A stretch of DNA of 47,292 nt from a virus. The notes beneath the pieces are model-generated. The model was not told where the DNA came from, made no database searches, and saw only the letters and a list, made by a program, of their open reading frames with translations. Within the stretch, counting starts at the first letter, position 1. Each line of letters starts with the position of its first letter. The translations under genes and the position numbers were made by a program. The stretch lies in the IMG/VR virus record IMGVR_UViG_3300022591_000018, positions 1 to 47,292 of that record; one strand, given 5' to 3'. Shown in pieces: positions 7,050 to 40,183 of this stretch.

Positions 7050-7446
7050 CTCACTGGATTTGACTCAGGCAGTGGATTTATCCCTGCTTATGAAGAAAAC
7101 AGACACTGAAAAAGCAAAACAACTTCCAAAGCCATCTGGATATCACATTCTATGTGCCATTCCTGAAGCAGAAGAAGAGTACGAAAGTGGAATAATTAAA
7201 GCTGATGAAACCAGAAGATATGAAGAATTGCTAACTACAGTTTTATTTGTAGTGGCATTAGGCGATGATTGCTATAAAGATCCGACTCGTTTCCCGTCTG
7301 GTCCTTGGTGCAAGCAAGGCGACTTTGTTCTGGTTAGACCGAATTCGGGATCAAAATTAATTATTCATGGTAAAGAATTCCGCTTGATCAACGATGATTC
7401 CGTAGAAGGTACAGTCGATGATCCCCGTGGCGTGAAACGAAAATAA
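7042..7446 (+). CDS. GroES-like co-chaperonin fold protein
   Basis: This 134-residue protein resembles GroES (Cpn10), the lid of the GroEL folding chamber. It shows PKPSGYHILCAIP in the place of the first barrel strand, then a SGIIKADETRR segment in the place of the mobile loop and following strand, a VVALGDDCYKDP turn, and GDFVLVRPNSGSKLIIHGKE matching the GD-x-V-x(n)-G-x-x-x-x-x-G-x-E pattern. It is longer than GroES (about 97 residues). The position between portal and scaffold suggests help in folding the capsid protein, as T4 gp31 does. The hydrophobic IVL tripeptide is only partly matched (GII), so GroEL binding is uncertain. Confidence 0.6.
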   Translation: MSNSLDLTQAVDLSLLMKKTDTEKAKQLPKPSGYHILCAIPEAEEEYESGIIKADETRRYEELLTTVLFVVALGDDCYKDPTRFPSGPWCKQGDFVLVRPNSGSKLIIHGKEFRLINDDSVEGTVDDPRGVKRK

Positions 7447-21994: not shown

Positions 21995-22374
21995 ATATCT
22001 ACGCAATCTACGCTATGGTAGCCATTAGCCTATTTTGTGGTGGTTTTGTAAGCGGCTGCCAGCATGAGCAAGCTGCCCAAGAAAAAGTCATTAGAGATAA
22101 AGAACACGATTACCAAGCCTCAGCCGACAAAATAAGGACAGAAAAAGATGCTCAAATTAAAGCTATTAACAATCAGCTTGTCGATGCTATTAGTGAGCTG
22201 CGTAAGCGCCCCAGTCGTACCTCAGAAGCCAGCGTTGGACAAGCAACCAAAGGCTGTAATGGAAGCCAGCTTTTCGCAGAGGACAGCGAGTTTCTTGTCA
22301 GGGAATCTGCCAGAGCCGATACAATAAGAGTAGCCCTTCAAGCCTGTTATGAACAATACGATTCAATCAAATGA
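21991..22374 (+). CDS. Rz: i-spanin (Rz-like)
   Basis: The 127-residue protein has an N-terminal membrane segment (IYAMVAISLFCGGFVSG), a charged coiled coil (residues 27-70) and the C-terminal pattern SELRKRPSR, then CNGSQLFAEDSEFLVRESA with a Cys near the end. This matches Rz-type inner-membrane spanins, which link to an outer-membrane lipoprotein. A nested gene in the +1 frame encodes such a lipoprotein. A VSGC sequence near the membrane segment resembles a lipobox, but the Rz layout is a better fit. It overlaps holin and endolysin genes by four bases. Confidence 0.82.
   Translation: MNIYAIYAMVAISLFCGGFVSGCQHEQAAQEKVIRDKEHDYQASADKIRTEKDAQIKAINNQLVDAISELRKRPSRTSEASVGQATKGCNGSQLFAEDSEFLVRESARADTIRVALQACYEQYDSIK
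22148..22327 (+). CDS. Rz1: Embedded o-spanin lipoprotein (Rz1-like), 59 aa
   Basis: A complete 59-codon frame lies wholly within Rz in the +1 frame. The product begins with a signal peptide (MLKLKLLTISLSMLLVSC) whose LVSC is a lipobox, so the mature protein starts at Cys18. The mature part is Pro-rich (APVVPQKPALDKQPK), as in known Rz1 proteins. AAGGA at 22134-22138 lies nine bases before the ATG. It is the classical embedded spanin arrangement of lambda-like phages and indicates a host with an outer membrane. Confidence 0.88.
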   Translation: MLKLKLLTISLSMLLVSCVSAPVVPQKPALDKQPKAVMEASFSQRTASFLSGNLPEPIQ

Positions 22375-22958
22375 ATAGCACCCAATTATTAGCCCTTGGC
22401 ATAGATGCTAAGTGGCTAGAACCGCTAAATCAAACTTTTCAAAAGTATGACATTAGCACCCCTGCACGTCAGGCTTACTTCATAGGACAGTGCGCTCATG
22501 AATCTGGAAATTTTCGAGTATTGGAAGAGAATCTTCATTACAGTGCCGCTGCACTTATGCGTGTTTGGTCCAGCAGATTTCCTGATATGGACACTGCTGA
22601 GAAGTATGCAAACAACCCAGAGAAAATAGCCAACAAAGTATATGGCGGGAGGATGGGCAATGTTGAAGATGGTGATGGCTGGAAGTATCATGGGCGTGGT
22701 CTTATACAACTTACTGGTAAAGACAACTATGCCAATTGCGGATCTGGTCTGGGTGTGGATCTTATTGACAACCCTGATATGCTCATTACTCCTGAATATG
22801 CGGCTCTAAGTGCGGGCTGGTTTTGGAACCGCAAACAGTTAAATCTCTTGGCAGATAGCCGGGATTACGAGACAATGACTAAGAGAATCAATGGTGGGCT
22901 TTTGGGTTTAGATGACCGTAAAGCTAAGATTGCGAAAGCATTGTCGGTACTAGGGTAA
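22371..22958 (+). CDS. Endolysin, glycoside hydrolase family 19
   Basis: This 195-residue enzyme should cut the glycan strands of peptidoglycan. The GH19 pattern is clear: FIGQCAHESGNFRVLEENLH with the catalytic Glu44, a second acidic residue near Glu53, and WKYHGRGLIQLTGKDNY. There is no signal peptide or separate binding domain, so export needs the holin. The gene starts in an ATGA overlap with the spanin gene. Confidence 0.92.
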   Translation: MNSTQLLALGIDAKWLEPLNQTFQKYDISTPARQAYFIGQCAHESGNFRVLEENLHYSAAALMRVWSSRFPDMDTAEKYANNPEKIANKVYGGRMGNVEDGDGWKYHGRGLIQLTGKDNYANCGSGLGVDLIDNPDMLITPEYAALSAGWFWNRKQLNLLADSRDYETMTKRINGGLLGLDDRKAKIAKALSVLG

Positions 22959-22964
22959 ACCAGA

Positions 22965-25103
22965 ATGCCATTAAAGAAAATTGTATTTAAGCCCGGAATA
23001 AATAGGGAAAATACTCGATACACTACCGAAGGCGGGTATTATGAATGTGACAAGATCCGTTTTCGCCAAGGAACACCTGAAAAAATAGGTGGTTGGGCAC
23101 GGATTTCATCTACTTTTTTCTTGGGTATTTGTCGTTCTTTATGGAATTGGATTACCTTAGGCGGTTTAAACCTTATATCTTTGGGTACAAACTTAAAGTT
23201 TTACCTAGAGCTAGGTGGTGTTTACTTTGATATTACTCCACTGCGCTATACAACTCATTCAGACATAGTAAATAACCCATTTACTACTGTTGCTTCATCA
23301 AACGTCATTACTGTTACTGATGCTGGATCTAACGTTCAGACCGGAGATTTAGTTAACATTTCCAATGTAACAGTGCCTGTAGATGGAATTCCAGCTAGTC
23401 AAATTAATGGTCAGCATACTGTTACCAGACTTAGCAGTACTCAGTACACATTTACCGTTACCACTGGGGCTACTGCTGGTATTGCAGGAACTGGCGGTGT
23501 AGTCACTTTTAACTACATTTACTATTCACAACTATTAACTAATGCTTACACCACTGTTAACTTAAGCAAAACAGTAACGGTTCATGCTCCCGGAAACGGC
23601 TGCATTACCAATGACTTTGTAACGCTTTCTCCATCTGTTACCTTTAATGGCGTAACGATTAGCGGTGAATATCAAGTAAACGTAATGGATCCTGATAACT
23701 ACACTATTCAAGCCTCTACTGCGGCTAATGCTTCAGGTACATATTCTGGAAATACTTATGCTGTTTACCAGATAAATACTGGTCCTGAATATCAGGTTCC
23801 CCGTGTTGGTTGGGGAGCTGGTTCTTGGGGTGCTGGAGGATGGGGTATTGGTCAGGCAAGCGATGCAGAATTGCGTATCTGGTCACAGTCTAACTTTGGT
23901 GAAGACTTAGTATTCTGCCCTCGTTATGGAGCTATTTATTATTGGTCTGCCAATAGCGGCATTACTTCTCGTGGAGTAGATATTGCTACTTTACCGGGTG
24001 CTTCAGATGTTCCTACAGTGGCACAGTTTGTTACTGTTTCTGATATATCTCGCTTTGTGTTTGCTATGGGGTGTAACGATTATGGCTCTACAGAATTAGA
24101 TCCAATGTTGATTCGCTGGTCAGACCAAGAGTCTGTAACCATGTGGACTCCTGATGCAACCAATCAGGCAGGTAGCTTAAGACTTTCTCATGGATCTGAA
24201 ATTGCTTCAGCATGGCAGGTACGTCAAGAGATCGTAGTCTTTACCGATTCTACAGCTTATTCTCTGCAATATTTAGGTGCTCCAGCAGTATGGGGTTCTA
24301 CATTGCTTGGTGACAATATATCCATCATTAGTCCTAATAGTGCTTCTCTGGCTTCGGGTGTTTTATATTGGATGGGACGTGATAAGTTTTATAAATATGA
24401 TGGTTCTGTAAGCACATTGTCTTGTGACCTTCGTCAATATATTTTTGGCGACATCAATTTAGGGCAGCCATATCAAGTGTTCTCTAGCACCAATGAAGGA
24501 TTTAACGAGGTTTGGTGGTTCTATTGCTCTGCAAATAGCACAGTAGTTGATAGATATGTCATATATAACTACCTTGAAAATATTTGGTATTACGGCACAA
24601 TGAATCGTTCTGCTTGGCTAGATTCTGGATTAAGAAACTATCCAATTGCCGCTACCTATGCAAATAACTTGGTATACCATGAAGATGGCGTAGATGATGG
24701 TACTGCTTTGGTTCCAGTTGCTATTGACTCCTATATCCAATCTTCTGAATTTGACATAGATGACGGTCATAACTTTGGATTTATCTATCGTATCCTCCCA
24801 GACTTAACATTCCGAGGATCTTCTGTAGCATCTCCAGACACTCCGCAAGTAACGATGACGCTTATTCCTTTGCAAAACTCAGGCTCTGGATACACTAATC
24901 CAGCCTCTGTAGGTGGAGCAGATAATGGAGTTGTAAGTAGGATTACTGAGGTTCCAGTGGAAGAATTTACTGGTCAGATCTTTATCCGTGTTCGTGGAAG
25001 ACAGCTAGTCTTTAAGATTGAAGGTAATCAACTTGGATTGGCATGGCAGTTAGGTGCGCCTCGTATTGATATTCGTCAGGATGGTCGTAGAGGAAACTCC
25101 TAA
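22965..25103 (+). CDS. Tail nozzle-like structural protein
   Basis: This 712-residue protein starts with KIVFKPGINRENTRYTTEGG, then DKIRFRQGTPEKIGGW, a conserved signature of a large tail protein in podoviruses. An Ig-like or beta insertion lies around residues 100-260. The rest is beta-rich and could be a propeller (SGVLYWMGRDKFYKYDGS, then NEVWWFYCSA). By size and order it is the best candidate for the nozzle (T7 gp12 / P22 gp10 role) below the adaptor. The Trp-Gly segment GWGAGSWGAGGWG resembles the start of the protein at 17965. Confidence 0.7.
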   Translation: MPLKKIVFKPGINRENTRYTTEGGYYECDKIRFRQGTPEKIGGWARISSTFFLGICRSLWNWITLGGLNLISLGTNLKFYLELGGVYFDITPLRYTTHSDIVNNPFTTVASSNVITVTDAGSNVQTGDLVNISNVTVPVDGIPASQINGQHTVTRLSSTQYTFTVTTGATAGIAGTGGVVTFNYIYYSQLLTNAYTTVNLSKTVTVHAPGNGCITNDFVTLSPSVTFNGVTISGEYQVNVMDPDNYTIQASTAANASGTYSGNTYAVYQINTGPEYQVPRVGWGAGSWGAGGWGIGQASDAELRIWSQSNFGEDLVFCPRYGAIYYWSANSGITSRGVDIATLPGASDVPTVAQFVTVSDISRFVFAMGCNDYGSTELDPMLIRWSDQESVTMWTPDATNQAGSLRLSHGSEIASAWQVRQEIVVFTDSTAYSLQYLGAPAVWGSTLLGDNISIISPNSASLASGVLYWMGRDKFYKYDGSVSTLSCDLRQYIFGDINLGQPYQVFSSTNEGFNEVWWFYCSANSTVVDRYVIYNYLENIWYYGTMNRSAWLDSGLRNYPIAATYANNLVYHEDGVDDGTALVPVAIDSYIQSSEFDIDDGHNFGFIYRILPDLTFRGSSVASPDTPQVTMTLIPLQNSGSGYTNPASVGGADNGVVSRITEVPVEEFTGQIFIRVRGRQLVFKIEGNQLGLAWQLGAPRIDIRQDGRRGNS

Positions 25104-25420
25104 TGAAGCTAGATGCACCAGCCGTACCAAACTTACCTTTACCAAAAGATCAGTTTGATAAATTATATTTAAACCAGCTTACAAACGTTTTACGCATATA
25201 CTTTAATCAAGTAGGAAATGTATTGCAAATTGTTGTAAATGACATTCCAACAAACCAAGTTTATGCAATAGTTAATTTGCCAACACCTGAAGACGCTGGA
25301 ATTGGTTTTAGGGCTTTTGTAACAGATTCATCAGTTACTACATTCGGTGCAGTAGTTGTGGCTGGTGGAACAAGTAAAGTACCAATCTATTCCGATGGGA
25401 CTGATTGGCGAGTAGGTTAA
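25103..25420 (+). CDS. Small virion protein, 105 aa
   Basis: The product has an N-terminal helical segment (LNQLTNVLRIYFNQV) and a C-terminal beta module (AGIGFRAFVTDS, then VPIYSDGTDWRVG) that recurs in many phage tail proteins. The gene starts in a TAATG overlap with the nozzle gene. A tail-associated role is likely. Confidence 0.6.
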   Translation: MKLDAPAVPNLPLPKDQFDKLYLNQLTNVLRIYFNQVGNVLQIVVNDIPTNQVYAIVNLPTPEDAGIGFRAFVTDSSVTTFGAVVVAGGTSKVPIYSDGTDWRVG

Positions 25421-25448: not shown

Positions 25449-25733
25449 ATGGACTTTTTAGAATTATTTAATGCAGTAGCTGTAGCAGTACGCCCAGCCT
25501 ATCAAGAATACAAGCCAGTCACTGACCTAGATATTCCTATGACCGAAACAGGCTTAGATAGCATGGATTCACTTATGATGGGCATATTCTTTTGCGAGAT
25601 CTATGGCATCTCAGAAGAACTAGGAAAGACCATGCACCCTACTACTCCTAGAGGATTTCAGGAGTTTTTAGAAGCTCATAAGACAAAGACACCAGCTTCA
25701 GTAGAAGAAGCTATTAAAGGAGTTAAATGGTGA
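25449..25733 (+). CDS. Acyl carrier protein-like protein
   Basis: This 94-residue acidic protein has the ACP signature TGLDSMDSLMMG, with Ser38 as the expected 4'-phosphopantetheine site in a DSM motif (DSL in most ACPs). The preceding helix and the later FFCEIYGI segment match the usual helix order. A GAGGA site lies close to the ATG. Its last bases overlap the ketoacyl synthase start (ATGGTGA), so the two are coupled. A phage ACP would depend on host holo-ACP synthase unless it works unmodified. Its position between tail and ejection-protein genes is very unusual. Confidence 0.75.
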   Translation: MDFLELFNAVAVAVRPAYQEYKPVTDLDIPMTETGLDSMDSLMMGIFFCEIYGISEELGKTMHPTTPRGFQEFLEAHKTKTPASVEEAIKGVKW

Positions 25734-26845
25734 TATATCTTACTGAGACAAGGACTGCCTCAACTGAGACGCTATCTCTTATAGAAGACATCTCCTATCC
25801 CCAGCAAGTACATTGGTTCCCAGAAAGCTATAACCGGATTAAATCTGGAATGTCTTATGTACCTCATAGAGTTGCAGAAAAAGTACTAGATAGTGAATTA
25901 CTAAAGAAACTAAGGGAAAACCCTGTAAAGACTGCATTTATTCTTGCTTCTGGGAATGCTCACTTTGCTGGAATTGGTCCTATTGCTTTTGATAATTCCC
26001 TTTCTTATGAGTACAAGTTCACTCCATTAACGCTTACTCAGGTTTATGCAGGACGGGTAGCTCAGTCTTGTGGTGCTTCAGATCACATCGTTACTGACTC
26101 TACTGCGTGTGCTTCTAGCCTTAAAGTCATGATGGATGTTCAGAACCTAATTAAGTTCTATGGTTTTAAGCGAGTCATTGTGCTTACATTGGAAGATCCC
26201 GTATCCAATACTGTTCTGAAGTTCTTTGGAGACTCCGGTGCAGTACTTACTCAAGCTGTAGAAGATGCAGAAAACATCGTGCCCAGTGCTTTTGATAGCA
26301 AAAACTATGGTTTTCACATCGGGCAAGGAGCTGCTTTAGCCGTCTTTGAGACAGAAGATAGTCTGAAAGTAACTGGATTTAAGCCCAAGGCAAAGCTTAT
26401 TGGGGCGTATACAGCGTCCGAAGATTGTCCTAATGCCATCGGTCAACGAGAGGATGGACAAGGCTTTACAAGGGCTATGGAAGGCGCTATGTATGTAGCT
26501 GGAGTACTGCCTTATCAGATTACTACAGTTAAAACACATGGCACTGGAACCAAGTCTAACAATGTAGCTGAAGGTAATGCTCTTACAACTACCCTAAAAG
26601 ACTTTGTGGCTACATCATTTAAGCAAAAAATAGGTCATACTATGGGTGCAAGTGGCTTGCTAGAAACCATACTATTGTTGGATAATCTAAAAAACGGTAC
26701 TGTGCCTCCTATAGCTAACCGTACAGAAGAAGATAAAGTCTTTTTAAGCAAACCAGCTTCCTATGATGGAGGGCTGGTTCTTAGTCTTGCAGCAGGAATG
26801 GGAAATGTCTATTCCGCAGCAATCTTTAAGGATGCACAATGTTAG
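25727..26845 (+). CDS. Beta-ketoacyl-ACP synthase-like enzyme
   Basis: The 372-residue product has the full KAS I/II active site: Cys128 in DSTACASS, His271 in KTHGTGT, Lys299 and His304 in FKQKIGHTMGASG. The Cys-His-Lys-His spacing is close to that of FabF (C163, H303, K335, H340). The family catalyses decarboxylating condensation of acyl and malonyl groups on ACP. It is shorter than FabF (about 410 residues) and the usual C-terminal GFGGTN loop reads AAGMGN, so the substrate may differ. It overlaps the ACP-like gene and the next gene by seven bases each. It could extend or modify fatty acids, or make an acyl product for the virion or host membrane. Confidence 0.88.
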   Translation: MVIYLTETRTASTETLSLIEDISYPQQVHWFPESYNRIKSGMSYVPHRVAEKVLDSELLKKLRENPVKTAFILASGNAHFAGIGPIAFDNSLSYEYKFTPLTLTQVYAGRVAQSCGASDHIVTDSTACASSLKVMMDVQNLIKFYGFKRVIVLTLEDPVSNTVLKFFGDSGAVLTQAVEDAENIVPSAFDSKNYGFHIGQGAALAVFETEDSLKVTGFKPKAKLIGAYTASEDCPNAIGQREDGQGFTRAMEGAMYVAGVLPYQITTVKTHGTGTKSNNVAEGNALTTTLKDFVATSFKQKIGHTMGASGLLETILLLDNLKNGTVPPIANRTEEDKVFLSKPASYDGGLVLSLAAGMGNVYSAAIFKDAQC

Positions 26846-27276
26846 TAGATAGCAAGAAAAAACAATTAAATACCACTGAGATAATCAAGACTGCCTTGGC
26901 TGAGATTAAGGAACCGCTTCCTTTACAGCAAGCGTTTTTGAATATCATGAAGGAATTGACTTCTCCTACTGCATGGGCTGGCAAGTCTGGCAATACATTA
27001 TTCATTGTTCACAAGTCCCCACAAAACCCAAAACAAGGCTTCTTTCGTGCTTTAAATGCTGATACTGCTGCCAATTACTTGGAAAACAGCCGTGAGTTTA
27101 TTGATCAAATGAAAAAGCAAAAGTATGAAACTCTTGTTAGCCAATTCAAAGATCCAGCAATTCTTAATATTTTCAAAGCTATTGCTAGAACTAGTGACCC
27201 AAAAGAAATGGGATATAAGGCTATTAAGTCTGGCGATACATATCAAGCAACAATTCAGTTAGCTCCAAAGGCATAG
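26839..27276 (+). CDS. Unknown protein coupled to the ketoacyl synthase gene, 145 aa
   Basis: This gene starts within the last codons of the ketoacyl synthase gene and is followed at once by the ejection genes. Its predicted strand/helix order (NTLFIVHK, GFFRALNAD, a long helix, LVSQFK, a helix, YQATIQL) recalls small GNAT-like virion proteins of podoviruses, but no acetyl-CoA loop (Q/R-x-x-G-x-G/A) is visible. It could be an inactive GNAT-like structural protein, or an acyl-ACP-dependent partner of the two preceding genes. I cannot decide between these. Confidence 0.5.
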   Translation: MLVDSKKKQLNTTEIIKTALAEIKEPLPLQQAFLNIMKELTSPTAWAGKSGNTLFIVHKSPQNPKQGFFRALNADTAANYLENSREFIDQMKKQKYETLVSQFKDPAILNIFKAIARTSDPKEMGYKAIKSGDTYQATIQLAPKA

Positions 27277-27277
27277 T

Positions 27278-29980
27278 ATGAAATACAACCACTTTAGTAC
27301 TCTACCAATCCGAGCTTTTTCTCCTCGTGGAAAAGGTCCGTTTGCTCATGGAATGACACTAGAAGGTGGTGGCGGTGGAATTATTTCTGACATTGTTAGT
27401 AGCGTTACTGATGTAGTTGACTCTGTAGGACAAGCTGTTAGCGATGTAGCTCAAACAATTAGCGATGTTGGCGTATCTATTGATAAGTCTGTAAATGACG
27501 CTGTTCCCGGTGGCTGGGCTACCGTAGGTGCTGTTGTTGCTACTGTTGCTACTATGGGAGCTGCTGCTCCATTAGCTGAAGCCGCTGTTGCTGCCGATGC
27601 TGCTATGGCTGCGGAAACTGCTGGTGCTGTTGAAGCTGGTATGGAAGCTGCAACTATTGGTGCAGATGCGGCTGTTCAAACAGGTGCTGATATAGCTGTA
27701 GCTTCTGGTGAAAGTACTTCTATTGCTGCTGAAGTAGGAACGACTGTATCTGAAACAATTCCTGCTGCTGACGTAGCTATTCCTGCTGATTTTGTTGGTC
27801 CTCCATCTGAATTAGCTGCTGACTTTGTTGGTCCTACTGGTATAGCTGACATTCCTGCCGCTGATGCTGCTGCACAAGAGGCTGCATTACAACAAGCTGC
27901 ACAAGCTGCCGCTACTGGTGCTGCTAAAGGTGCTGGTATTGCTGGTGTAAAAGACTTAGTTACTACTGGAACTATCAATCCAAACGACTTATTAACTGGC
28001 GCTGTAACTGGTGGCGTAGGTGGTGGTATTGGTAACTTAGCTGGTGGTTTTGCTCAAGGATTAGCTTCTACTCCTGAGCTTGGACAATACGCTTCTACTA
28101 TTGGTAAGGCTGCTTCAGGTATCGCTGGTGGTATTGCTGGTGGTGCTACTGGTGCAGAAATGACTGGTAGAGATCCTTGGATGGGCGCTATGACTGGTGG
28201 TATTTCCGGTCTAACAGGAGCCGCTGCATTAGGTGCTAATACTGGATTGCAAGCTGCTGGTTTAGATCCTATGGGTGCTGGTCTTCTTACTCAGACAGCA
28301 ATGGGAGCTGGTAAAGCTGCATTAGCTGGTGGCGATCCACTTGCAGGAGCCTTAAATGCTGGCGTAGGCTCTATGCTTGGTACAGGTATTAGTACTGCTG
28401 GTAATGCTGCTTATCAGGATATTAAAGGTGCTTTGCCAAGCATGAGCGATATTACTTCTGGCATGTCTTCTGCTGGTCCTACGATAGCGGATACTACGAC
28501 TCCATCTGATGTAATGTTGGCTGCCACTAGCGGTGGATCTAACGCTGATATATTCCAGTCAGATAACTACAAAATGGCTATTGCTCTTGGATATACTCCA
28601 GATCAAGCCGTTCAGTTTGCTCAAAATCTTAGTGCTGATCAGGCTGCTACAAGCGGTCCTTCTCCTTATGCTCCACTAGCTTCTACTGGAGAGACTCAAT
28701 TAGTTAAGGTTAGCCCAGCTCCATCTAGCACAGATACAGGGACATCTTCTACTGGATCTAAAGACCAATTAGCCTCAGATCTTGCGGCAGGTAACATTAC
28801 TCAGGATGAGTACAACAAAGATATGTCTGTAATAGACCCATCTTATGTACCACCTACAGCTCCAGATTTAACAGCTAATCCAAGCACAATATCTGACTTA
28901 GCTAATGCTGTATCTACAGATACAACAAAAGCTCCTGCAAGCACTCCTGATATCACTACTCCAGTAACATCTTCTAATCCATTAGGCATTACTCAGTCTG
29001 AATCTGCGGCTGATAATCCAATGAAAATTACCAATAATCCTGATGGATCAGTTACTGTTAATGAAAATGATGGTACTCAGCGTGTATTTACACCTGCTGG
29101 AACTGTAATTAGCATTGCTCCAGTTGGCAGTATGACTGTTGATTCACCTACTCAAGCTGCTGCTGATGCTGCCGCAGTTCAAGGTAGCGGTGTAAATCTT
29201 GGTAATTTAGCTAGTGGATTATTAGGAAACATTTTAAATAATGCTACTGGCAAAGGCGCTAGTTTAATTCCGGGTCTTGCTGGTATTGGAGCTGGTATTG
29301 CTGCTGCCGCAAGTCAACCTGCTGGCTGGAATCCTACGGAACAAGTAGTTCCTAACTCTTCATTAAATTGGCAATCTAATCCTGTAGTAGTTGGTCCAAC
29401 AGGTCAATCCTTTGGTCAAAAGATTATTAATCCAATTAGAGCTGCTGAAGGTGGATTAATGAGTATTACCCCTACAGTTGGTCAAAATGGTTTTAATAAT
29501 CTCCAAGATAACAACGGAGATCCTACTAGTTCAGTACAGGTATACGCTCATGGCGGGGTAGTAAAGGCTATGAGTGATCATGGCGTTCATCCAACTAAAG
29601 AAAACCTTGCTACTGCTCATCATTTAATTAAAAGTGGTCAGCCAGCGCATTTAGTCATGGGATTCTTAAAGCATCGTATGGCTCAGGGTGGATCTACTTC
29701 TGATTTAGGTGGATACTCAGATGGCGGGCGTATGCTTAAAGGTCCCGGAGATGGTATGTCAGATGACATTCCTGCTTCCATTGGTGGCAAACAGCCAGCT
29801 CGCCTAGCAACAGATGAATTCGTAGTTCCAGCAGATGTAGTCAGTCATTTAGGTAATGGCTCGTCAGATGCTGGTGCTAAAGTTTTGTATAACATGATGG
29901 ATAAGATTCGCAAAGCCCGTACAGGTACAACCAAACAAGGCAAACAGATTAACCCACATAAATTCATGCCAAAAGGATAA
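27278..29980 (+). CDS. Large Ala/Gly-rich ejection-type protein, 900 aa
   Basis: Residues about 80-450 are extremely Ala/Gly-rich with glycine-zipper patterns (TGGVGGGIGNLAGGFAQG, AASGIAGGIAGGATGAEM) that could enter a membrane. Gly-Gly motifs follow (AAEGGLMSI, YAHGGVVKAM, MAQGGSTS). The end has the conserved block GPGDGMSDDIPASIGGKQPA, then EFVVPADVVSHLGNGSSDAG, known from virion proteins of related phages. It is the first of the large late genes and probably part of the ejected core that forms a channel across the host envelope; that role is inferred. Confidence 0.65.
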   Translation: MKYNHFSTLPIRAFSPRGKGPFAHGMTLEGGGGGIISDIVSSVTDVVDSVGQAVSDVAQTISDVGVSIDKSVNDAVPGGWATVGAVVATVATMGAAAPLAEAAVAADAAMAAETAGAVEAGMEAATIGADAAVQTGADIAVASGESTSIAAEVGTTVSETIPAADVAIPADFVGPPSELAADFVGPTGIADIPAADAAAQEAALQQAAQAAATGAAKGAGIAGVKDLVTTGTINPNDLLTGAVTGGVGGGIGNLAGGFAQGLASTPELGQYASTIGKAASGIAGGIAGGATGAEMTGRDPWMGAMTGGISGLTGAAALGANTGLQAAGLDPMGAGLLTQTAMGAGKAALAGGDPLAGALNAGVGSMLGTGISTAGNAAYQDIKGALPSMSDITSGMSSAGPTIADTTTPSDVMLAATSGGSNADIFQSDNYKMAIALGYTPDQAVQFAQNLSADQAATSGPSPYAPLASTGETQLVKVSPAPSSTDTGTSSTGSKDQLASDLAAGNITQDEYNKDMSVIDPSYVPPTAPDLTANPSTISDLANAVSTDTTKAPASTPDITTPVTSSNPLGITQSESAADNPMKITNNPDGSVTVNENDGTQRVFTPAGTVISIAPVGSMTVDSPTQAAADAAAVQGSGVNLGNLASGLLGNILNNATGKGASLIPGLAGIGAGIAAAASQPAGWNPTEQVVPNSSLNWQSNPVVVGPTGQSFGQKIINPIRAAEGGLMSITPTVGQNGFNNLQDNNGDPTSSVQVYAHGGVVKAMSDHGVHPTKENLATAHHLIKSGQPAHLVMGFLKHRMAQGGSTSDLGGYSDGGRMLKGPGDGMSDDIPASIGGKQPARLATDEFVVPADVVSHLGNGSSDAGAKVLYNMMDKIRKARTGTTKQGKQINPHKFMPKG

Positions 29981-31567: not shown

Positions 31568-33337
31568 ATGATGAATTTGATTCAACTCCAAGATGAGATG
31601 AAAAATCTCCCATTAGCAGATGTTCAAAAGTATGCTAATGGTTCTAATCCACAGGTTCCTGCTTATCTAGCTTTGTCTGAGATGATGAGAAGAAAACAGA
31701 TTGAGGCTACTCAACAGGCTTTTCAAGGTAATCCTCCTACTGTTAAAGATCAGTTAAGTAATGCTTTGTCTAAGCCAAGTCAGTTTGCTGTTGATCCTAC
31801 TCAGCAACAAGGTGGAGTTAATCCTACATTAACCAAAGGTATTGTTAATCCTGCTGCCCAGCAAGATGCTGCTGCTATGCTGCGTGGTCAAAAGATGGCT
31901 ACTCAATCTGGTTTAACTGGCGAACAACAAGGTCAACAGGGTATTGCTGATATTGCTGCATTTGAAAAAGCTAATCCTGTAGCTCAATTTGCAGATGGCG
32001 GTATTGTTGATTTAACTACCAACCAATTGCAACAACCGCAGCCTCCCTTAGATGGAAGTACACAGCAACCTACTTCTATGCCACAACAATCTGGTAGCCC
32101 TACTTCTTTTTGGGGTCAGCCACAATGGATTGCTCCTCCTCCACAGCCTTCTACCCAACAGACTTCCCAAGCACAGCCACAGGCTTTGCCACAGAATGTT
32201 CAGGGTCTTAGCAGCTTGCCTACATCTAATATGTTCCAACAACAGTCATTTGCTGGCGGTGGAATCGTAGCTTTTAGTGGTACTGACGGTAGCCAAGTTC
32301 CAGATATTTCTGGTACTGCTTCCTTTGGGAATACTGGTCTGGCTACTACTGAGAACACTCCATCTGGTTATCAAGCTCCTCCTACATCAACACCAGTTAC
32401 TGACTTTTCTACATTGCCACAAGCTCGTCAAGCTCAGATTAGTAGCTTTTACAACCAGACTCCTGAGCAGTTCTCGGCTGCACATAAAGCTCGTTTGGCT
32501 GCTGAAGGTGTATCAGAAGATCCATTCTTAGGCATTAAAGATCGCTATTCCAAGATTGAAGAGCGTCAAGCTGCACAAGCTGCAAGCAATCCTTTAGACC
32601 GTATCATTGCTCAGTTCTCTGCTATGGCTCAGGCTAATCCAGTTATGGGTATTGGCTATCAAGCTGGCGTAGGCGCACAGGCTAGTCAGAAATTGGAAGC
32701 TGCTCAGAACGAATTGTTGGATAAACAACAAGAGAAAATGGCTGAGTTGCAACATAACATTGCTAAAGAAGATGATGCTCGTAAGCGTGGTAACGTGGCT
32801 GCTGAAGAAGGCTATGCTGTTGCTAAAGAGAAGAATGTTCAAGAACTTGCTAAGTTGGAGAATGAATCTACTATTGCTAAAGCCCACATGATTAGCGCAT
32901 TGGCTTCTCAGTCTCAGGCTGGTACTGCTGCTGCTAGAGAAGGCGCTAATGATAAAGCGTTGACCACTCTCATGGCTCGTGTAAATGGGGATCCAGCTAT
33001 CAAAGCTCTTAGCGGTAGATTGAAAGATGCTGAAGTTGGTAGCGAAGAATACAACGGAATTGTGTCTGAAATCCAAAGATTGTCTGTTCCATATTACAAG
33101 TCTGCCGGATTAGAGCCTCCTGAGCTGGGAGTAACCACAGTAGCTCCTAAACCAGCTAAGACTCCTTGGTGGAAGTTTGGATCTAGCTCATCTGATAACA
33201 CACAAAAAGTTAACGTAGGTGCACCACAAACTCCCACAGGATTACCCGCTGGCGCTAAAATAGTTGGATATGAGCCGGGCACAACCAATCCTGTATATGA
33301 AACGCCAGACGGTAAGAAATTCGTACAAAAACAATAG
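31568..33337 (+). CDS. Virion protein with Gly-Gly-Ile-Val motifs and coiled coil, 589 aa
   Basis: The N-terminus (IQLQDEMKNLPLADVQKYAN, then PAYLALSEMMRRKQ) is a conserved start of ejection-region proteins. Gln/Pro-rich stretches hold FADGGIVDL and FAGGGIVAFSG motifs. Residues about 335-450 form a long coiled coil (EAAQNELLDKQQEKMAELQH and onward). It likely joins the ejected complex. The end carries a small Pro/Gly-rich module (GLPAGAKIVGYEPGTTNPVY). Confidence 0.6.
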   Translation: MMNLIQLQDEMKNLPLADVQKYANGSNPQVPAYLALSEMMRRKQIEATQQAFQGNPPTVKDQLSNALSKPSQFAVDPTQQQGGVNPTLTKGIVNPAAQQDAAAMLRGQKMATQSGLTGEQQGQQGIADIAAFEKANPVAQFADGGIVDLTTNQLQQPQPPLDGSTQQPTSMPQQSGSPTSFWGQPQWIAPPPQPSTQQTSQAQPQALPQNVQGLSSLPTSNMFQQQSFAGGGIVAFSGTDGSQVPDISGTASFGNTGLATTENTPSGYQAPPTSTPVTDFSTLPQARQAQISSFYNQTPEQFSAAHKARLAAEGVSEDPFLGIKDRYSKIEERQAAQAASNPLDRIIAQFSAMAQANPVMGIGYQAGVGAQASQKLEAAQNELLDKQQEKMAELQHNIAKEDDARKRGNVAAEEGYAVAKEKNVQELAKLENESTIAKAHMISALASQSQAGTAAAREGANDKALTTLMARVNGDPAIKALSGRLKDAEVGSEEYNGIVSEIQRLSVPYYKSAGLEPPELGVTTVAPKPAKTPWWKFGSSSSDNTQKVNVGAPQTPTGLPAGAKIVGYEPGTTNPVYETPDGKKFVQKQ

Positions 33338-33346
33338 GAGTTTTTA

Positions 33347-36300
33347 ATGGCTTTAGTTGAATACACTGGGGAAATTGCCCCAGTAGAAAAACCTGCTGTA
33401 ACTCCTGCTTTTGTTCCATATACAGGCGAAGTAGCTCCAGTAGCTAAACCTGTCCCTGCTGGTGGTTTTCTGCAAGATATTGGAAAACTGGTAGGTGCTG
33501 GTGCTCTTCAGACTTTAGCTGGTTCTCCAGAAGCTCTTCAGTACGCTGGTGCTGAGACTACTAAAGATACATTCTTTAAGCCAACAGAAACCCTGAATTT
33601 ACTGGCTGATCCTGCTGCTTTGACCAACAAAGTAGTAGGTGCTTTTGGATTCTCTCCTGTATTCCAAGAGGCTACTAATCTTAAGATCGTTCCTGATGCT
33701 GTAGTTCAACAGCAAAGTGCTGCTTTAGATAACGTACTTACTCGTGGCAAGATCCCGCAGTTACGTCAGCTTACCGACTACGGTACTGAAGTAGCCAAGA
33801 ACATAGAAGACTCAGTAACGCCTGAAATGAAACAGGCTATGGCTGAAAGTTCTCCTACTGGTAACTTGATTAAAGCTCTAGGTACAGGTGACTTTAGCGA
33901 ACTCAGCATTGGTCAAGCACCGTCTGTTCAAGGTTTAGCTGGTCAAGCTGCTAAGGTGTTTGGCTCTACAGGTACAGGCATATTGATGTCTTTACTGACC
34001 AAGAGTCCTACTGTTGGCGGTGCATTCGGATTCGGTCAAGCGTCTGCTGAAGGTGTTGGCGATGCTCGTTCCTATATCGAGAAGATGCCTGAAAATGAAC
34101 TGGCTCAGAAAAGTGAGTACTACCGTAACCTGTTAGTGCTTGGCTATGATCCAGCTACAGCTAAGGAAATGACTGTAGATAAGGCTGCTAGTACAGCGGC
34201 TATGGCACAAGGTATTGTTGGCTCATTAGGTGGTGAATTCACAGGAAAACTGATTACTGGTCAGTTGGATAAGACTTTACTTGGTGCTGTAGAAAACAGA
34301 CTAGGTAAGGTAGCTTTAGGTACTGCTACTGGTATGACTGAGGAAGGTTTGCAAGAACTTGCCGAGGGCGTAGCTACAGACTTGGGTATTGATAAGACCG
34401 TAGTTCGTGAGATCGGTGCTGATTCTTTTGCCAACTTAATATTGGGTGCTATCGGTGGTGGTGGTCCGGGTGCGGTTAGCGGTGCTAAAGCTAAGACTGA
34501 AACTAAAGTAGAAGCTCCTAAGTTTGTAGAGTACAAAGGTGATATCGAACCTGCTCCAGCTCCTGCTGCCGTTACCCCAGCTCCTGAAGCTAAAGTAACT
34601 GTAGAAGCTGCCCCTGCTACATTTGAAAAAGCCCAGCCATTACCATCTCCTTTATCTGAAGATGAGCAATATCGTGCCGATATGTTGGCTGAATTAGAAG
34701 ATATCCCAGCACAAGCTCCTGCCGCTGCACAGACTCCAGTAGAAAAAGCTGTAGAACCTGAGATTGCCGCAGCTCCAGAAGAAGTCAAAGAACCAGTCAT
34801 TCAGAACCGTAATAGAGCTACTCCAGCATCTATTAACCAGATGAATCAGATTGCTGGCAACCCAGACTATGACCGTATTAGCTTCTCCAAAGACTTTGCT
34901 AATGGCGCTCCTGTTGTTGCTGGTAACTTAGAGCTGCCTACCGATCAGCTCGGAAGTAAATCTACACTTACGTCTGCCGATGGACGCAAGATTCCTATTC
35001 AATATGGCGTAGTAGAAGCTGATGAGATTCTCCCATCTAACAATGCAGATGGATCAGTCAATAAAGAATTCCTAGATCCTAGCTATCAGGGATTCAAAGC
35101 TATTGCAGGAAATGCTCGTACCGCTGGAATACAGGCTGCCTATGACCGTGGAACAGCAGAACAGTACAAAGTATCAATGATTGAAGATGGACTGCATGGC
35201 ATTGATCCTAGCGTGATTGAAGGCATGAAGAAGCCAGTATTAGTTCGTGTAATGCCACAAGATCAGCTTACTAATGACATTGGTGACATCTCCAACGTAG
35301 CTACTAACCTTACTCTGTCTGCTGTAGAACAGGCTAAGAATGACGCTAATCGTGTAGATTTACAGGGTCTTGCTTTTGATCCTAACGGCAATATCACTAT
35401 GTCTGCATTGCGTGGATTCATCCAATCCATGCCTGTATCTGAGCAAGCTAGTCTGATTGACACTAATGGATTGCCTACAAAACAGGCAGTTGACCGCTTA
35501 AATGCCGCTATTTTCAGCAAAGCCTATGAGAATGAAGAACTAGTTCGCCTGTCTCATCAAGCTGAAGATGCAGAAGCCAAGCTGGTTCTGAAGGCATTAT
35601 CAGAAGTAGCTCCACAGATGTCCCGCCTAGAGGGTGCTGGTGAGTACGACATTCGCCCGCAAGTAGCTCAAGCTGCTGAGTTAGCTGTTAATGCCCGCAG
35701 GAATGGCATCAAGCTTGATAGTCTAGTCAAGCAACAAGATATGACTGTTGATCCATTGGCACAGCATATCCTTCAGATCATGGCTGATAATGCTCGCTCC
35801 GGTAAGCGTATGGCAGAAGCTCTAAAAGACTTGGCAGATCGTGCTTATGAAGAGTCTCAAGGTGCTGCGGTAGATATGTTCGGTGAGAAGCCTAAGCGTA
35901 CTGTTACTGAGCTTGCTCAAGAACGTCCAGCTCCAGATCCTAATCTATTAGCACAACCAACTGAAGAAGAGCAGATTCAAAGAGAATATAAGCGTCAGCA
36001 AGAAGCAACTGCACCTGAAGTTCCAGTTAAGAAGACCAAAGCTACAACGGTTTCTACTGTAACCCGTGGACCAGACTTCTCATTTAATGGCGAGTATGTA
36101 GTCACTATGGAAAATGGTGATCAGTACACAATGTATCGTGATATGTCAGGCTTGACCAACGTTCCAGCGTGGAGATTGACTCCTGATTCTGCCATTAGCA
36201 AAGAGTACGACTTGCTTGGTTGGAATAGAAAAGAAGCATTAGAAGAGCTTCCTAATTGGATTAATACCAACAGGGCTATACCGCTTAAAGAAAAGATTGA

Positions 36301-36727
36301 AGTATCTAAGAAAGCTAAGAAACCTAGCAAAGAGCCTTTAATTGATGAAAGCTTAAGCAAGCTTCAAGCTAATCCAGAACAGATTGAAAAAGCTAAAGAT
36401 ACTGTCAGAAGATCTATTCCAAGCGCTGATCTTGTTTGGCAAGACGGTGATATTGGATTAGTCCGTGGTTACGATAAATACACTGGCAATCCAATGTATG
36501 TTCCATATAACAATGGAAGTATCTACAACCTTGATATCAAAGATATTGGATCACATGGGCTGTATAGCATTGGATTTAATGAACAACAACAAAATGAATT
36601 ACTAAAAGCTAGAGAAGACCTAGAGGCTGAAGCACAAGCTAAACATGAAAAAACTCCATATTTGAAGTTTGAAAATGACGCTGAATTCTCTCCTGATGTT
36701 CCTATTAGTATGCGGAATGTTATTTAA
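33347..36727 (+). CDS. Polyvalent protein, N-terminal part with DdrB-like ParB domain
   Basis: This 1126-residue product starts with two copies of the motif YTGE(I/V)APVxKP, with a third related copy near residue 395 (EYKGDIEPAPAP). A hydrophobic/glycine-rich section follows. Residues about 490-850 match the ParB-like ddrB domain of large polyvalent phage proteins (FKAIAGNARTAGIQAAYDRG, then PVLVRVMPQDQL and AVEQAKNDANRVDLQG). Such proteins are injected with the DNA and protect or process it. The frame ends at a TAA, but the same frame continues with the metallopeptidase/LPD38 part, so this may be the first half of one giant protein. Confidence 0.75.
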   Translation: MALVEYTGEIAPVEKPAVTPAFVPYTGEVAPVAKPVPAGGFLQDIGKLVGAGALQTLAGSPEALQYAGAETTKDTFFKPTETLNLLADPAALTNKVVGAFGFSPVFQEATNLKIVPDAVVQQQSAALDNVLTRGKIPQLRQLTDYGTEVAKNIEDSVTPEMKQAMAESSPTGNLIKALGTGDFSELSIGQAPSVQGLAGQAAKVFGSTGTGILMSLLTKSPTVGGAFGFGQASAEGVGDARSYIEKMPENELAQKSEYYRNLLVLGYDPATAKEMTVDKAASTAAMAQGIVGSLGGEFTGKLITGQLDKTLLGAVENRLGKVALGTATGMTEEGLQELAEGVATDLGIDKTVVREIGADSFANLILGAIGGGGPGAVSGAKAKTETKVEAPKFVEYKGDIEPAPAPAAVTPAPEAKVTVEAAPATFEKAQPLPSPLSEDEQYRADMLAELEDIPAQAPAAAQTPVEKAVEPEIAAAPEEVKEPVIQNRNRATPASINQMNQIAGNPDYDRISFSKDFANGAPVVAGNLELPTDQLGSKSTLTSADGRKIPIQYGVVEADEILPSNNADGSVNKEFLDPSYQGFKAIAGNARTAGIQAAYDRGTAEQYKVSMIEDGLHGIDPSVIEGMKKPVLVRVMPQDQLTNDIGDISNVATNLTLSAVEQAKNDANRVDLQGLAFDPNGNITMSALRGFIQSMPVSEQASLIDTNGLPTKQAVDRLNAAIFSKAYENEELVRLSHQAEDAEAKLVLKALSEVAPQMSRLEGAGEYDIRPQVAQAAELAVNARRNGIKLDSLVKQQDMTVDPLAQHILQIMADNARSGKRMAEALKDLADRAYEESQGAAVDMFGEKPKRTVTELAQERPAPDPNLLAQPTEEEQIQREYKRQQEATAPEVPVKKTKATTVSTVTRGPDFSFNGEYVVTMENGDQYTMYRDMSGLTNVPAWRLTPDSAISKEYDLLGWNRKEALEELPNWINTNRAIPLKEKIEVSKKAKKPSKEPLIDESLSKLQANPEQIEKAKDTVRRSIPSADLVWQDGDIGLVRGYDKYTGNPMYVPYNNGSIYNLDIKDIGSHGLYSIGFNEQQQNELLKAREDLEAEAQAKHEKTPYLKFENDAEFSPDVPISMRNVI
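36725..36727 (+). other. In-frame ochre codon splitting a giant open frame
   Basis: The frame opened at 33347 meets TAA here and then stays open to 40183 (3456 further bases). The downstream stretch reads GWKNLLGIKQKIYFTTLEHA directly after the stop and looks like coding sequence, but has no ATG and no ribosome binding site before the metallopeptidase motif. It could be a true nonsense mutation, an assembly error, or a readthrough site. Confidence 0.85.
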
Positions 36728-36823
36728 GGATGGAAAAATCTTTTAGGTATTAAACAAAAGATCTATTTCACCACCTTAGAACACGCTACTGCAATTAAAA
36801 ACGAGTTTACTGGTCCACATAGA

Positions 36824-39800
36824 TTGATTGGTTCCGCTTCTGCAAATAGAGAAGAAGGTGGATTTACAGCTCCCCTTAAAGATGGAAACAGAGTTATTGT
36901 TTACAAAAAAGCTGCAAGTAATGCTAAGAATCTTGAGATCATTGCTCATGAGCTAGGTCATGCTCATATGTATGAAGTCTATAAAGACGCTTCTCCAGAA
37001 GTAAAAGCTGAGTTAGAAAAGGAACATTTAAAGTGGGCAAGATCTATCAAAGGCGATACATTTGCTAAAGACTTGGTTGATTCTCTACGAGCTAGAAAAA
37101 CAGCCAAAACAACTAGCATGGTCGAAGGGTTAAAAGCAAGAGACCTTAAGAATGTTGATAATTACTGGAGATCATTTAAGGAATGGTACGCAGATCAGAC
37201 TGCTAAGTGGGCTACTACTAGTGAGAAACCATTAACTGTTGTAGAGAAATTCTTTAGCAGACTTGGTAAAGCCATGAAGTCTTTCTATGGCAAGCTAAAA
37301 AACTCTGGTTATTTGCCTACTGAGACATTTAAAAAGTACATGGATAGTCAAGCTTCTCAACTTGATTTACAGCCCATAGAAGAGAAACAAGTCCAGCCTC
37401 CTTCAATGGATGAGCAGATGACATTATTTAGTAAGTCTAAAGTTGAGCCTGTAGAAAAGCCAACTTTAAAGACTATCCATAAGAACTATAAGGGTGGTCC
37501 TGCTCCATTGGCTGAATGGAATAGTCCTGAAGTGACCCAGAAAGAGTCCCTGATTGACTCATTCCTGTACAGAATGCAGGATAAGTTTATTGATACTAAG
37601 CGTGTACAACAGGCTATTACTCAGCAAGTTGGTGAGATTGAAGACAAGTTCAATGCTTACAACAAAGAGAGCTTGATGCACGAAAAGACTGCCAAGCAGA
37701 CTCAGGACTTCCTAAAGAATGAGCTATTGCCAATCATTAAAGATATGCAAAAGTATGGCATTACCATTCAGGAATTCGGTGGAGATAAAGGCTATCTGCA
37801 TAACCGTCATGCCATAGAGCGTAACGAACAGATCGCTACTATTAATCCTGAGCTTCAAGATGCAGGTTCCGGTATTAAGACTGCCGATGCTGAGAAGTAC
37901 ATGGATAACCTAGATCCAGCTAAGAAGAAAGTAATGGAAGCATTAGCCAAGAAGGTTGATGCCATCATTAAAGAAACTCAGCGTATCTTGGTGGACTCAG
38001 GATTAGAGACTCAGGAAACTATCAATGCTTGGAATAAAACCTACAAGCACTATATGCCTTTGTTCCGTGAGAACTTAGAGTTTGCTACTGCTAAGAAGGG
38101 TAAGGGTACTGGAGTTGGTACTCGTGGACCATCTACTAGACGTGCTTTAGGTTCTACAAAAGAAATCTCCGAGATCTTATCCAATGTGGCTGAGTTCAGA
38201 GAGAGCGCAATTATGCGAGCTGAACGGGCTATTGTTGGTCGTGCCATCTATGGTCTAGCTATTAAGAATCCTAATACTGATTACTGGTTAGCTGTTAATC
38301 CTGATGCCGCTAAGAATAAGAAGAAGCTAGAAGCAGAGTTGGTATCTCATGGAATGACTAAAGAAGATGCTAAGAACTTTATTCAGGAACCACAGCAAGC
38401 GTACATTGATCCTAAGACTGGATTGGTTGCGTATAGGGTAAACCCTGTACTCCGTAACAGCGATAACGTATTGCCTGTTCGTGTCAATGGTAAAGATCGT
38501 TATGTGTTCTTTAATCCTAATGATGAGCAAGCCATGCGTATGGTTTCAGCTTTGAAGAACTTGGACACCAAAGGATTCAATGCTTTCTTTAACATGATTG
38601 GTAAGGGTACTCGCTGGTTAGCTTCTGTTAATACACAGTACAACCCAGTGTTCGGTATCTGGAACTTCGTGCGTGACGTACAAGGTGCAGCCTTAAACGT
38701 AACTTCTACTGAGCTTGCTGGTCATGAGAAGGCAATTATGAAAGATACATTGCCAGCTCTGAAAGGTATCTATCAAGACATCCGTAGCCAAAGCAAGGGC
38801 GAAGGTCCTGCTAATAGTGAATGGGCTAAGTTGTGGGAAGACTTCCAACAGGCTGGTGGTCCAACAGGCTATAAAGATCAATTTACTAAAGCCCGTAGAG
38901 AAGCTACGATTATCGAACGTGAGATGAAGAATCTCAATCAGGGTAATGCTATGAAGTTGGCTAAGTCTGTAGCTCAATGGCTATCAGACTACAATGATTC
39001 TATGGAGAATGCTGTTCGCTTATCTGCCTATAAGGTAGGTTTAGAGCAAGGATTATCCAGAGATAAAGCCGCCATCTTAGCTAAAAATCTGACAGTTAAC
39101 TTCAACCGTAAAGGATCTTTAGCTCAAGACATTGGCGTTCTGTATGCGTTCTTTAATGCTTCTATGCAAGGTTCTGCTCGCCTGATTGAAACTCTAAAAG
39201 GTCCAGCAGGGCGTAAGATTATGGCTGGTGGATTGCTAATTGGCGTAATGCAAGCAATTGCTTTAGCTATGGCAGGGTTCGATGATGATGAGCCTCCTGA
39301 GTTTGTTAAGGCTAGAAACCTAATCATTCCTACAGGTGGTGGTACTTATGTCATGATCCCTATGCCATTGGGTTACAACCTTATTCCTACTACTGGCAGA
39401 CTGTTTACTGAAATGCTTATTTCTGGCGGTAAAAAAGTACCTACTAAACTATTTGATTTGATGAGTTCATTGGCTGATGCCTTTAATCCTATCGGTGGAT
39501 CAGGATTACAGTTAATTGCGCCTACAGTATTAGATCCATTCGTAGCCCTCAAGACCAACAAAGATGCCTTTGGTAGACCAATCTTCAGGGAAGATAGAGA
39601 GACTGCGCCAACCCCCGGATATATGCGTTCCCGTGAAAGTGCCAGCACCTTTAGCAAGTACTTATCTGAGTTCCTAAACTATGTATCTTCAGGCGGTATG
39701 AAGTATACGAAGGGAGCTGTAAGCCCTACTGCTGATGAGATTGATTACTTAGCTGGTCAGGTAACTGGTGGTGTCGGGCGTGAAGTCATGAAGGCTGGTC

Positions 39801-40183
39801 AGACTATTGGCAACCTGTTTACGGGCGAGGAGACTGCTCCTTATAAGCGTCCTATTATCAGCAAGCTAATCGGTGATACAGAAGCTCCATCCAATATCGC
39901 TAATAAGTTCTATCAAAACATTATTGATATGGCTAACCATGAGTCTGAAGTTAAGGGTCGCAGAAAGAACCATGAAGATGTTACTGGTTATTTACAAGAT
40001 AATCCTGAAGCTAGACTCTGGCAACGGGCTAACAACGTAGAGAACCAGATCAATAAGCTAAATAAAGAAAAGCGTGAAAAGCAGAAGAGTGGCGCTGATC
40101 AGGAAGTTATTCAGCGTATAGATGATAAGAAAACTAAGCTGATGAAGGACTTCAACGATAAGGTTAGAGCAGCTCAAGAATAA
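36824..40183 (+). CDS. Polyvalent protein, C-terminal part: zinc metallopeptidase and LPD38-like domains
   Basis: The coordinates use the first usable start (TTG at 36824), but the same frame is open back to the TAA at 36725 and the coding pattern continues up to it. Near the start, NLEIIAHELGHAHMYE is a HExxH zinc metallopeptidase site, with FKEWYADQTAKW downstream as the likely third ligand region. The middle is helical. Residues about 600-900 match the large polyvalent LPD38-type domain (NTQYNPVFGIWNFVRDVQGA, then NFNRKGSLAQDI and FFNASMQGSARLIETLKG) with a hydrophobic segment (GGLLIGVMQAIALAMAG). The protein is probably ejected and may act on host cell wall, membrane or proteins. Confidence 0.75.
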   Translation: MIGSASANREEGGFTAPLKDGNRVIVYKKAASNAKNLEIIAHELGHAHMYEVYKDASPEVKAELEKEHLKWARSIKGDTFAKDLVDSLRARKTAKTTSMVEGLKARDLKNVDNYWRSFKEWYADQTAKWATTSEKPLTVVEKFFSRLGKAMKSFYGKLKNSGYLPTETFKKYMDSQASQLDLQPIEEKQVQPPSMDEQMTLFSKSKVEPVEKPTLKTIHKNYKGGPAPLAEWNSPEVTQKESLIDSFLYRMQDKFIDTKRVQQAITQQVGEIEDKFNAYNKESLMHEKTAKQTQDFLKNELLPIIKDMQKYGITIQEFGGDKGYLHNRHAIERNEQIATINPELQDAGSGIKTADAEKYMDNLDPAKKKVMEALAKKVDAIIKETQRILVDSGLETQETINAWNKTYKHYMPLFRENLEFATAKKGKGTGVGTRGPSTRRALGSTKEISEILSNVAEFRESAIMRAERAIVGRAIYGLAIKNPNTDYWLAVNPDAAKNKKKLEAELVSHGMTKEDAKNFIQEPQQAYIDPKTGLVAYRVNPVLRNSDNVLPVRVNGKDRYVFFNPNDEQAMRMVSALKNLDTKGFNAFFNMIGKGTRWLASVNTQYNPVFGIWNFVRDVQGAALNVTSTELAGHEKAIMKDTLPALKGIYQDIRSQSKGEGPANSEWAKLWEDFQQAGGPTGYKDQFTKARREATIIEREMKNLNQGNAMKLAKSVAQWLSDYNDSMENAVRLSAYKVGLEQGLSRDKAAILAKNLTVNFNRKGSLAQDIGVLYAFFNASMQGSARLIETLKGPAGRKIMAGGLLIGVMQAIALAMAGFDDDEPPEFVKARNLIIPTGGGTYVMIPMPLGYNLIPTTGRLFTEMLISGGKKVPTKLFDLMSSLADAFNPIGGSGLQLIAPTVLDPFVALKTNKDAFGRPIFREDRETAPTPGYMRSRESASTFSKYLSEFLNYVSSGGMKYTKGAVSPTADEIDYLAGQVTGGVGREVMKAGQTIGNLFTGEETAPYKRPIISKLIGDTEAPSNIANKFYQNIIDMANHESEVKGRRKNHEDVTGYLQDNPEARLWQRANNVENQINKLNKEKREKQKSGADQEVIQRIDDKKTKLMKDFNDKVRAAQE

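Follow-up and report, generated by a model that had tools for sequence, protein, structure and literature searches.

What does an acyl carrier protein (ACP) followed by a ketoacyl synthase (KS) do among the late genes of a phage? The question is raised by a viral DNA of 47,292 nucleotides (IMG/VR record IMGVR_UViG_3300022591_000018, positions 1 to 47,292), referred to here as the window. An initial annotation, made from the sequence without database searches, proposed that these two genes and a third one (T3) form a cassette for fatty-acid or polyketide-type chemistry, described as rare in phages, which could serve the lipid-linked modification of virion proteins, a change to the host membrane before ejection or lysis, or the redirection of host fatty-acid synthesis.

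Organization of the locus

The features of the window are collected in Table 1. The open reading frames and PHROG matches confirm that an ACP-like gene, a KS gene and T3 follow each other on one strand, between a gene for a tail protein and the ejection genes, as initially described. The downstream block at 31568-40183 carries ddrB-ParB and LPD38 domains. Before the capsid genes, positions 7042-7446 (+) encode a weakly matching Cpn10/GroES-like protein (PF00166, E 0.0023, under the cut-off), and the annotated phage genome MW202545 has a chaperonin 10 annotated at a similar place.

Table 1. Features of the window that bear on the ACP-KS locus.
Feature	Coordinates	Strand	Evidence
Terminase large subunit (RNaseH-like domain, PF17289), intein-interrupted	1757-4135	+	Intein: PF14890, 1.3e-15
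Glycoside hydrolase family 19, probable endolysin, just 5' of the gp10-like gene	22371-22958	+	PF00182, 2.4e-11
P22 gp10-like tail stabilisation/virion protein, upstream of ACP	22965..25103	+	PHROG 3287 virion structural protein, 5e-58; relatives annotated stabilization protein
Small 105-aa gene between the gp10-like tail gene and ACP	25103..25420	+	ORF; among close relatives, matches in some only (L002-L010); no match in Pfam and PHROG searches
ACP, 94 aa	25449..25733	+	ORF; Ser38 attachment site in DSMDS
KS, atypical FabF-like beta-ketoacyl-ACP synthase, 372 aa	25727..26845	+	ORF, Pfam
T3 (third gene), predicted GNAT-fold protein, 145 aa	26839..27276	+	ORF, AF2 model
First large ejection/internal-virion-type gene, downstream of T3	27278..29980	+	ORF; no match in Pfam or PHROG; role proposed because it precedes the 31568-40183 block
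Two very large proteins of ejection type, bearing the polyvalent domains ddrB-ParB (PF18763) and LPD38 (PF18857)	33347-40183	+	
ERF-type recombinase and PD-(D/E)XK nuclease, opposite-strand early region	44160-44846 and 46190-47062	-	

A Shine-Dalgarno-like sequence precedes the start of each of the three genes. With ATG starts, the ACP/KS and KS/T3 overlaps are of 7 bases each, as the initial annotation stated for the window; among relatives an ACP/KS overlap of 4 bases is usual and a 7-base KS/T3 overlap is not conserved. The KS start is itself ambiguous, at ATG 25727 or GTG 25730, and the family consensus places the start at GTG 25730, from which the ACP/KS overlap of the window may also be of 4 bases (GTGA) instead of 7.

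The first two genes encode a predicted carrier protein and an atypical ketoacyl synthase

In the translation of the first gene, Ser38 lies within the DSMDS motif. Searched as a single sequence against Pfam, the window ACP matched no family at E<=0.1, and a profile of 39 of its relatives matches solved ACPs in the PDB (E 5.1e-5). Its AF2 model (pLDDT 85; helices 3-14, 38-52, 56-59 and 67-77) is an ACP-like helix bundle in which S38 starts helix II, followed by a conserved C-terminal tail of ~17 residues. VIA-align placed carrier proteins in its top rows (Z 6.5-8.1, best 8.1), and the best Foldseek match reached an E value of only 0.31 at a probability of 0.91, so that the model lends moderate support to a four-helix ACP fold. 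Across 146 distinct sequences, D37, S38 and D40 are invariant and residue 39 is L or M; this and the following invariance counts refer to 146 distinct complete ACP-KS-T3 sets. Sequence and model together identify the first gene as an ACP with a predicted carrier function.

The second gene matches both domains of the ketoacyl synthases in Pfam (Ketoacyl-synt_C, PF02801, 6.5e-19, 68.5 bits; ketoacyl-synt, PF00109, 9.2e-9, 35.7 bits; both over the cut-off of 20.8), and a profile search of the PDB gave KAS II as best match (1.7e-27). It also matches PHROG 35856 at 2.3e-39; two PHROG families match, neither with an assigned function. The active site claimed for this protein is complete in the translation, with C128 in ACASS, H271 in KTHGTGT, and K299 and H304 in KQKIGHTMG, and the four residues are invariant in the 146 sequences.

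The entrance to this active site is unusual. In KAS I and KAS II enzymes, a conserved GFGG loop with two flanking Asn residues gates substrate entry (PMC7138838). The HMMER alignment places GMGN-x-Y in the phage KS where FabF has GFGG-x-N, with Met358, present in 146/146 sequences, at the place of the FabF gating Phe400; the flanked GFGG gate that defines FabF (KAS II) proper is thus lacking. Against the NCBIfam FabF model TIGR03150 the KS scores 114.2 bits, compared with a cut-off of 493.75, and against the model for AmcF, the cispentacin ketosynthase that acts on 2-oxoglutaryl-ACP (PMC10698177), it scores 106 bits over residues 103-367, the cut-off being 325 bits. By these sequence models, the KS is a member of the beta-ketoacyl-ACP synthase superfamily, but neither FabF nor AmcF as curated, and with its GMGN-x-Y gate it may catalyze a reaction other than fatty-acid elongation. 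Identity between the window KS and the cellular KSs detected with tblastn is ~25-30%, and in the tree a long branch separates the window KS from the two cellular sequences included.

The pair is widespread, tightly coupled and under purifying selection

A single-sequence scan of IMG/VR detected 206 relatives, and an alignment scan at least 554 related stretches. Among annotated phage genomes, only MW202545 carries ACP, KS and T3. When 84,980 genomes of bacteria and archaea were scanned by pattern, a method that requires exact short motifs and may miss cellular relatives, the yield was one phage-like contig, part of a Balneolaceae MAG, and a single distant KS. Further matches to the KS in phage collections, all below 31% identity and in unannotated records, resemble normal bacterial FabF from assemblies contaminated with host DNA. 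A cluster of SDR, ACP, another gene, KS and ABC-transporter genes was also noticed on the E. coli plasmid NZ_CP060058 (L262, 99.8 kb), its KS being distant from that of the window (25.7%).

Within IMG/VR, 192 distinct KS loci were recovered, four of them cut by contig ends. At each of the 188 loci with room, an ACP gene lies directly 5' of the KS, and the junction is an exact 4-base overlap in 180 of the 188 scored cases. The KS/T3 junction is variable, with the 7-base overlap at 14 junctions and the others ranging from overlaps to 12-base gaps. Sequence distances correlate with r 0.90 for ACP-KS, 0.82 for KS-T3 and 0.79 for ACP-T3, and the partial correlations computed from these values are ~0.72 for ACP-KS given T3 and ~0.20 for ACP-T3 given KS. 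Median dN/dS ratios (Nei-Gojobori, from non-independent pairs with pS 0.1-0.6) were 0.076 for KS, 0.097 for ACP and 0.081 for T3.

Because at least 554 related stretches exist in IMG/VR and dN/dS is ~0.08-0.10, the presence of these genes is not due to chance: the pair is carried by hundreds of uncultured phages, and ACP and KS are maintained under strong purifying selection. Host-derived fragments with decayed active sites, the outcome that the initial annotation named as fatal to its proposal, are ruled out by the invariant catalytic residues of the 146 sets and by these ratios.

The pair occurs in more than one genomic context

In most loci the pair has the surroundings seen in the window. 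A gp10-like gene lies within 6 kb of the KS in 163/192 loci, and T3 follows the KS in 167/168 loci with room that were sorted as late region, which was the default class in the sorting. Eight loci differ, since their ACP-KS pair lies inside a replication module and lacks T3; the gene order there is D5-type primase, VRR-NUC, SNF2 helicase, ACP, KS, a gene of 99-105 aa, and DUF2800. At a further locus (L288), the pair, also without T3, lies beside a C5 methylase/nuclease region and other non-structural genes. The catalytic motifs are kept in the replication-module pairs. The 99-105 aa gene always follows the KS in these modules, at the place of T3 (L283, 9101-9400; L350, 5153-5470), and may have a link to the pair in this setting.

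The replication-module group forms one clade of the tree (SH-aLRT 98), and L288 falls outside it, beside the clade of the window itself, in a tree in which several forks are weak; because the two contexts thus lie in different parts of the tree, at least two relocations of the pair are likely. As the pair also occurs in replication modules without T3, we conclude that ACP and KS constitute a self-contained, obligate and mobile two-gene metabolic unit, and not a part of the virion. The search for the trio in other phages thus upheld the initial proposal in part: a real, selected ACP and KS with complete catalytic residues lie together in the late region and are always found together, but the pair and T3 also occur apart, and we rejected the trio as a single functional unit. 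The virion-specific roles first suggested, namely modifying virion proteins or acting before ejection, become less likely given the non-structural contexts of the pair.

The third gene is best read as part of the ejection block

Searched by sequence against PDB, Pfam, PHROG and NCBIfam, T3 gave no significant match. Its AF2 model (pLDDT 87, pTM 0.80; topology a-a-b-b-b-a-b-a-b-b) was more informative. The top PDB matches listed by Foldseek are all N-acetyltransferases, with 62 at E<=0.001 (best E 1.2e-5), and VIA-align also gave GNATs as top matches, with Z up to 12.0, so that the model predicts a GNAT fold. The Q/RxxGxG/A acyl-CoA loop is not evident in the alignment, where the strand-helix junction reads ALNADTAxN, and N73, D75, G51, N52 and E39 are invariant in the 146 sequences.

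Scans seeded with KS-linked T3s recovered seven distinct T3 sequences that precede ejection genes without ACP-KS and show the same conserved motifs. They are scattered on the T3 tree, implying at least two and most simply five changes, and include near neighbours of the window T3. In other phages without ACP-KS, the slot is filled by a protein of equal size, which is a true GNAT in CRP-901 (by Pfam), gp13 in T7 and gp14 in P22. T7 gp13 (PF11090, 138 aa) and P22 gp14 (PF11039/DUF2824, 151 aa) resemble T3 (145 aa) in size and in lying directly before the ejection genes, and the structural matches of T3 include a DUF2824 protein. Sequence kinship of T3 with T7 gp13, P22 gp14 or the CRP-901 GNAT was sought with hhalign, which gave no signal; the parallel lies in position and size, and for CRP-901 also in fold. 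Because T3 occurs without the pair and equal-sized proteins fill its slot in phages without ACP-KS, T3 is best read as a gene of the ejection block and not as an obligate member of the ACP-KS unit, even if its near-constant place after the KS in the late region could reflect a functional link. In the pelagiphages HTVC027P and HTVC023P (L085 and L088), recovered as relatives of the gp10-like gene, a glycosyltransferase occupies the slot before the ejection genes, which suggests a cargo site for envelope-active enzymes.

Host partners and possible roles of the pair

Matches to ACPS, adh_short_C2 (FabG-type) and Acyl_transf_1 (FabD-type) were sought in 25 phage records, 42-72 kb in length and possibly incomplete, and none was found, while the bacterial controls were detected. 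As no phage-encoded phosphopantetheinyl transferase, FabG or FabD was found in these records, the host must supply the loading of the ACP, the malonyl groups and the later steps. We favor, at somewhat better than even probability and by analogy with known systems, the view that ACP and KS are a condensing unit grafted onto host fatty-acid synthesis, diverting host malonyl and acyl groups. A host phosphopantetheinyl transferase would load the phage ACP at Ser38; whether this would be the host AcpS is uncertain, because the sequence of the phage ACP, with no Pfam match, is far from those of host ACPs. Host FabD would then charge the phage ACP with malonyl, or the KS would take an acyl group from host acyl-ACP. 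The KS, whose Cys128-His271-Lys299-His304 site is observed, would condense the acyl starter and malonyl on its own ACP to a 3-ketoacyl-ACP, and host FabG/FabZ/FabI or a host acyltransferase would process the chain. The length or type of acyl chain in the infected cell would thereby be set by the phage KS and ACP and not by host FabB/FabF, with T3 a separate ejection-block gene that is a neighbor by chance in the late-region version. During infection the pair thus probably makes an altered acyl chain with the help of the remaining fatty-acid enzymes of the host, and redirecting host fatty-acid synthesis would be the best fit, again by analogy, among the roles first proposed.

Other readings have to be weighed against this one. 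The pair could make a special acyl-ACP from which T3 transfers the acyl group to an amine, for instance that of a lysine or of the N-terminus in an ejection protein or a host protein, on the model of NodF/NodE/NodA, FeeL/FeeM or HlyC-type enzymes. The predicted GNAT fold of T3, its constant residues and its place after the KS agree with this, and the lack of an obvious CoA loop might be expected if the enzyme works without acyl-CoA. A NodF/NodE/NodA-type cassette would also join a dedicated ACP and KS, as seen at 188/188 loci, but its acyltransferase would always accompany the pair, and here nine pairs (the eight of replication modules and L288) lack T3 and seven T3s with unchanged motifs lack the pair. 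With a KS/T3 junction that is not conserved and GNAT-type or equal-sized proteins in the same slot of CRP-901, T7 and P22, phages without ACP-KS, we regard this reading as unlikely, though still a serious competitor. HlyC-type enzymes do not appear among the 50 best structural matches listed for T3, which weighs neither way. Its more specific form for the late region, in which the atypical KS and its own ACP would make an acyl chain absent from the uninfected host and the GNAT without a CoA loop would attach it to an ejection or host protein, appears less likely still.

It is likewise improbable, to a slightly greater degree, that the KS extends a non-fatty starter by a single C2 unit to yield a small molecule or signal, in the manner of AmcF. 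The changed gate loop would suit such a reaction, and the AmcF score (106 bits) is near that for FabF (114), with similar lengths (369 and 372 aa), but the score is far below the AmcF cut-off, no AmcG- or AmcH-like neighbor was seen at the pair loci, and no tailoring enzyme consistently adjoins the pair. A sink, in which ACP and KS would deplete malonyl groups or holo-ACP partners, or would act as a decarboxylase on malonyl-ACP, and so hold back fatty-acid synthesis or ACP-linked signalling in the host, would not require a strictly paired, dedicated ACP. The catalytic Cys of the phage KS is also invariant, unlike in the decarboxylating KSs of the Gln type. On the other side are the absence of downstream enzymes from the 25 phage records and the capacity of a relaxed gate to favor futile products, as in the F400A variant of S. 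pneumoniae FabF, which makes triacetic acid lactone (PMC7138838); we judge a sink to be distinctly improbable. Least credible of all is that both proteins have ceased to be enzymes and are structural or ejected parts of the virion: that most loci place them between tail and ejection genes would fit, but the catalytic residues are fully conserved under strong purifying selection and the pair also occurs in replication modules.

Comparison with known systems

The influence of phages on host lipids has so far been inferred mostly from lone ACPs, desaturases and host-like fab genes. Here, a widespread and phage-specific ACP-KS pair keeps all catalytic residues, has a changed gate and moves as a unit between unrelated modules, which makes it testable which acyl chain the phage wants and for what purpose; if it works, a functional phage KS and ACP could also provide a compact orthogonal pair with which to engineer the synthesis of acyl chains. 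With its phage contexts, its optional presence beside T3 and its dN/dS of ~0.08-0.10, the pair belongs among the phage auxiliary metabolic genes. It is new relative to the PMC literature searched, in which no such phage-specific pair is described (preprints and most subscription papers lay outside the scope of this search).

The initial statement that such chemistry is rare in phages needs qualification, since acpP is known in Erythrobacter phage R6L (PMC5463345) and Alteromonas phage R22Y (PMC11705849), and fabG-acpP-fabF in Rhodobacteraceae prophages (PMC8224337). These cases consist of either an ACP by itself or a fab operon in host order, whereas the pair described here is phage-specific and without FabG; a search of annotated phages with the window ACP matched only MW202545 and not the ACPs of the R6L and R22Y type. 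MW202545 (Caudoviricetes sp. ctpbd312, Manatee Spring), an uncultured genome record, likewise shows ACP, KS and T3 in this order, flanked by a stabilisation protein and ejection genes, with its KS annotated as 3-oxoacyl-ACP synthase and its ACP and T3 as hypothetical; the PMC papers searched contain no discussion of its pair. AmcF is likewise a short KS, and differs in that no AmcG or AmcH partners were seen beside the phage pair.

With FabF and FabB (KAS II and KAS I), the phage KS shares two domains, the Cys-His-Lys-His residues in their usual motifs and KAS II as best PDB match; it is shorter, has GMGN-x-Y for GFGG-x-N, and scores 114 bits against a cut-off of 494. In rhizobia, NodF and NodE are a dedicated ACP and KS for the fatty-acid synthesis of Nod factors that rely on host fatty-acid enzymes. 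The pair described here is carried by phages and has no NodA homolog by sequence, and its likeness to NodF/NodE rests on membership in the same KS and ACP superfamilies and on a common logic, that of a dedicated ACP and KS leaning on the host.
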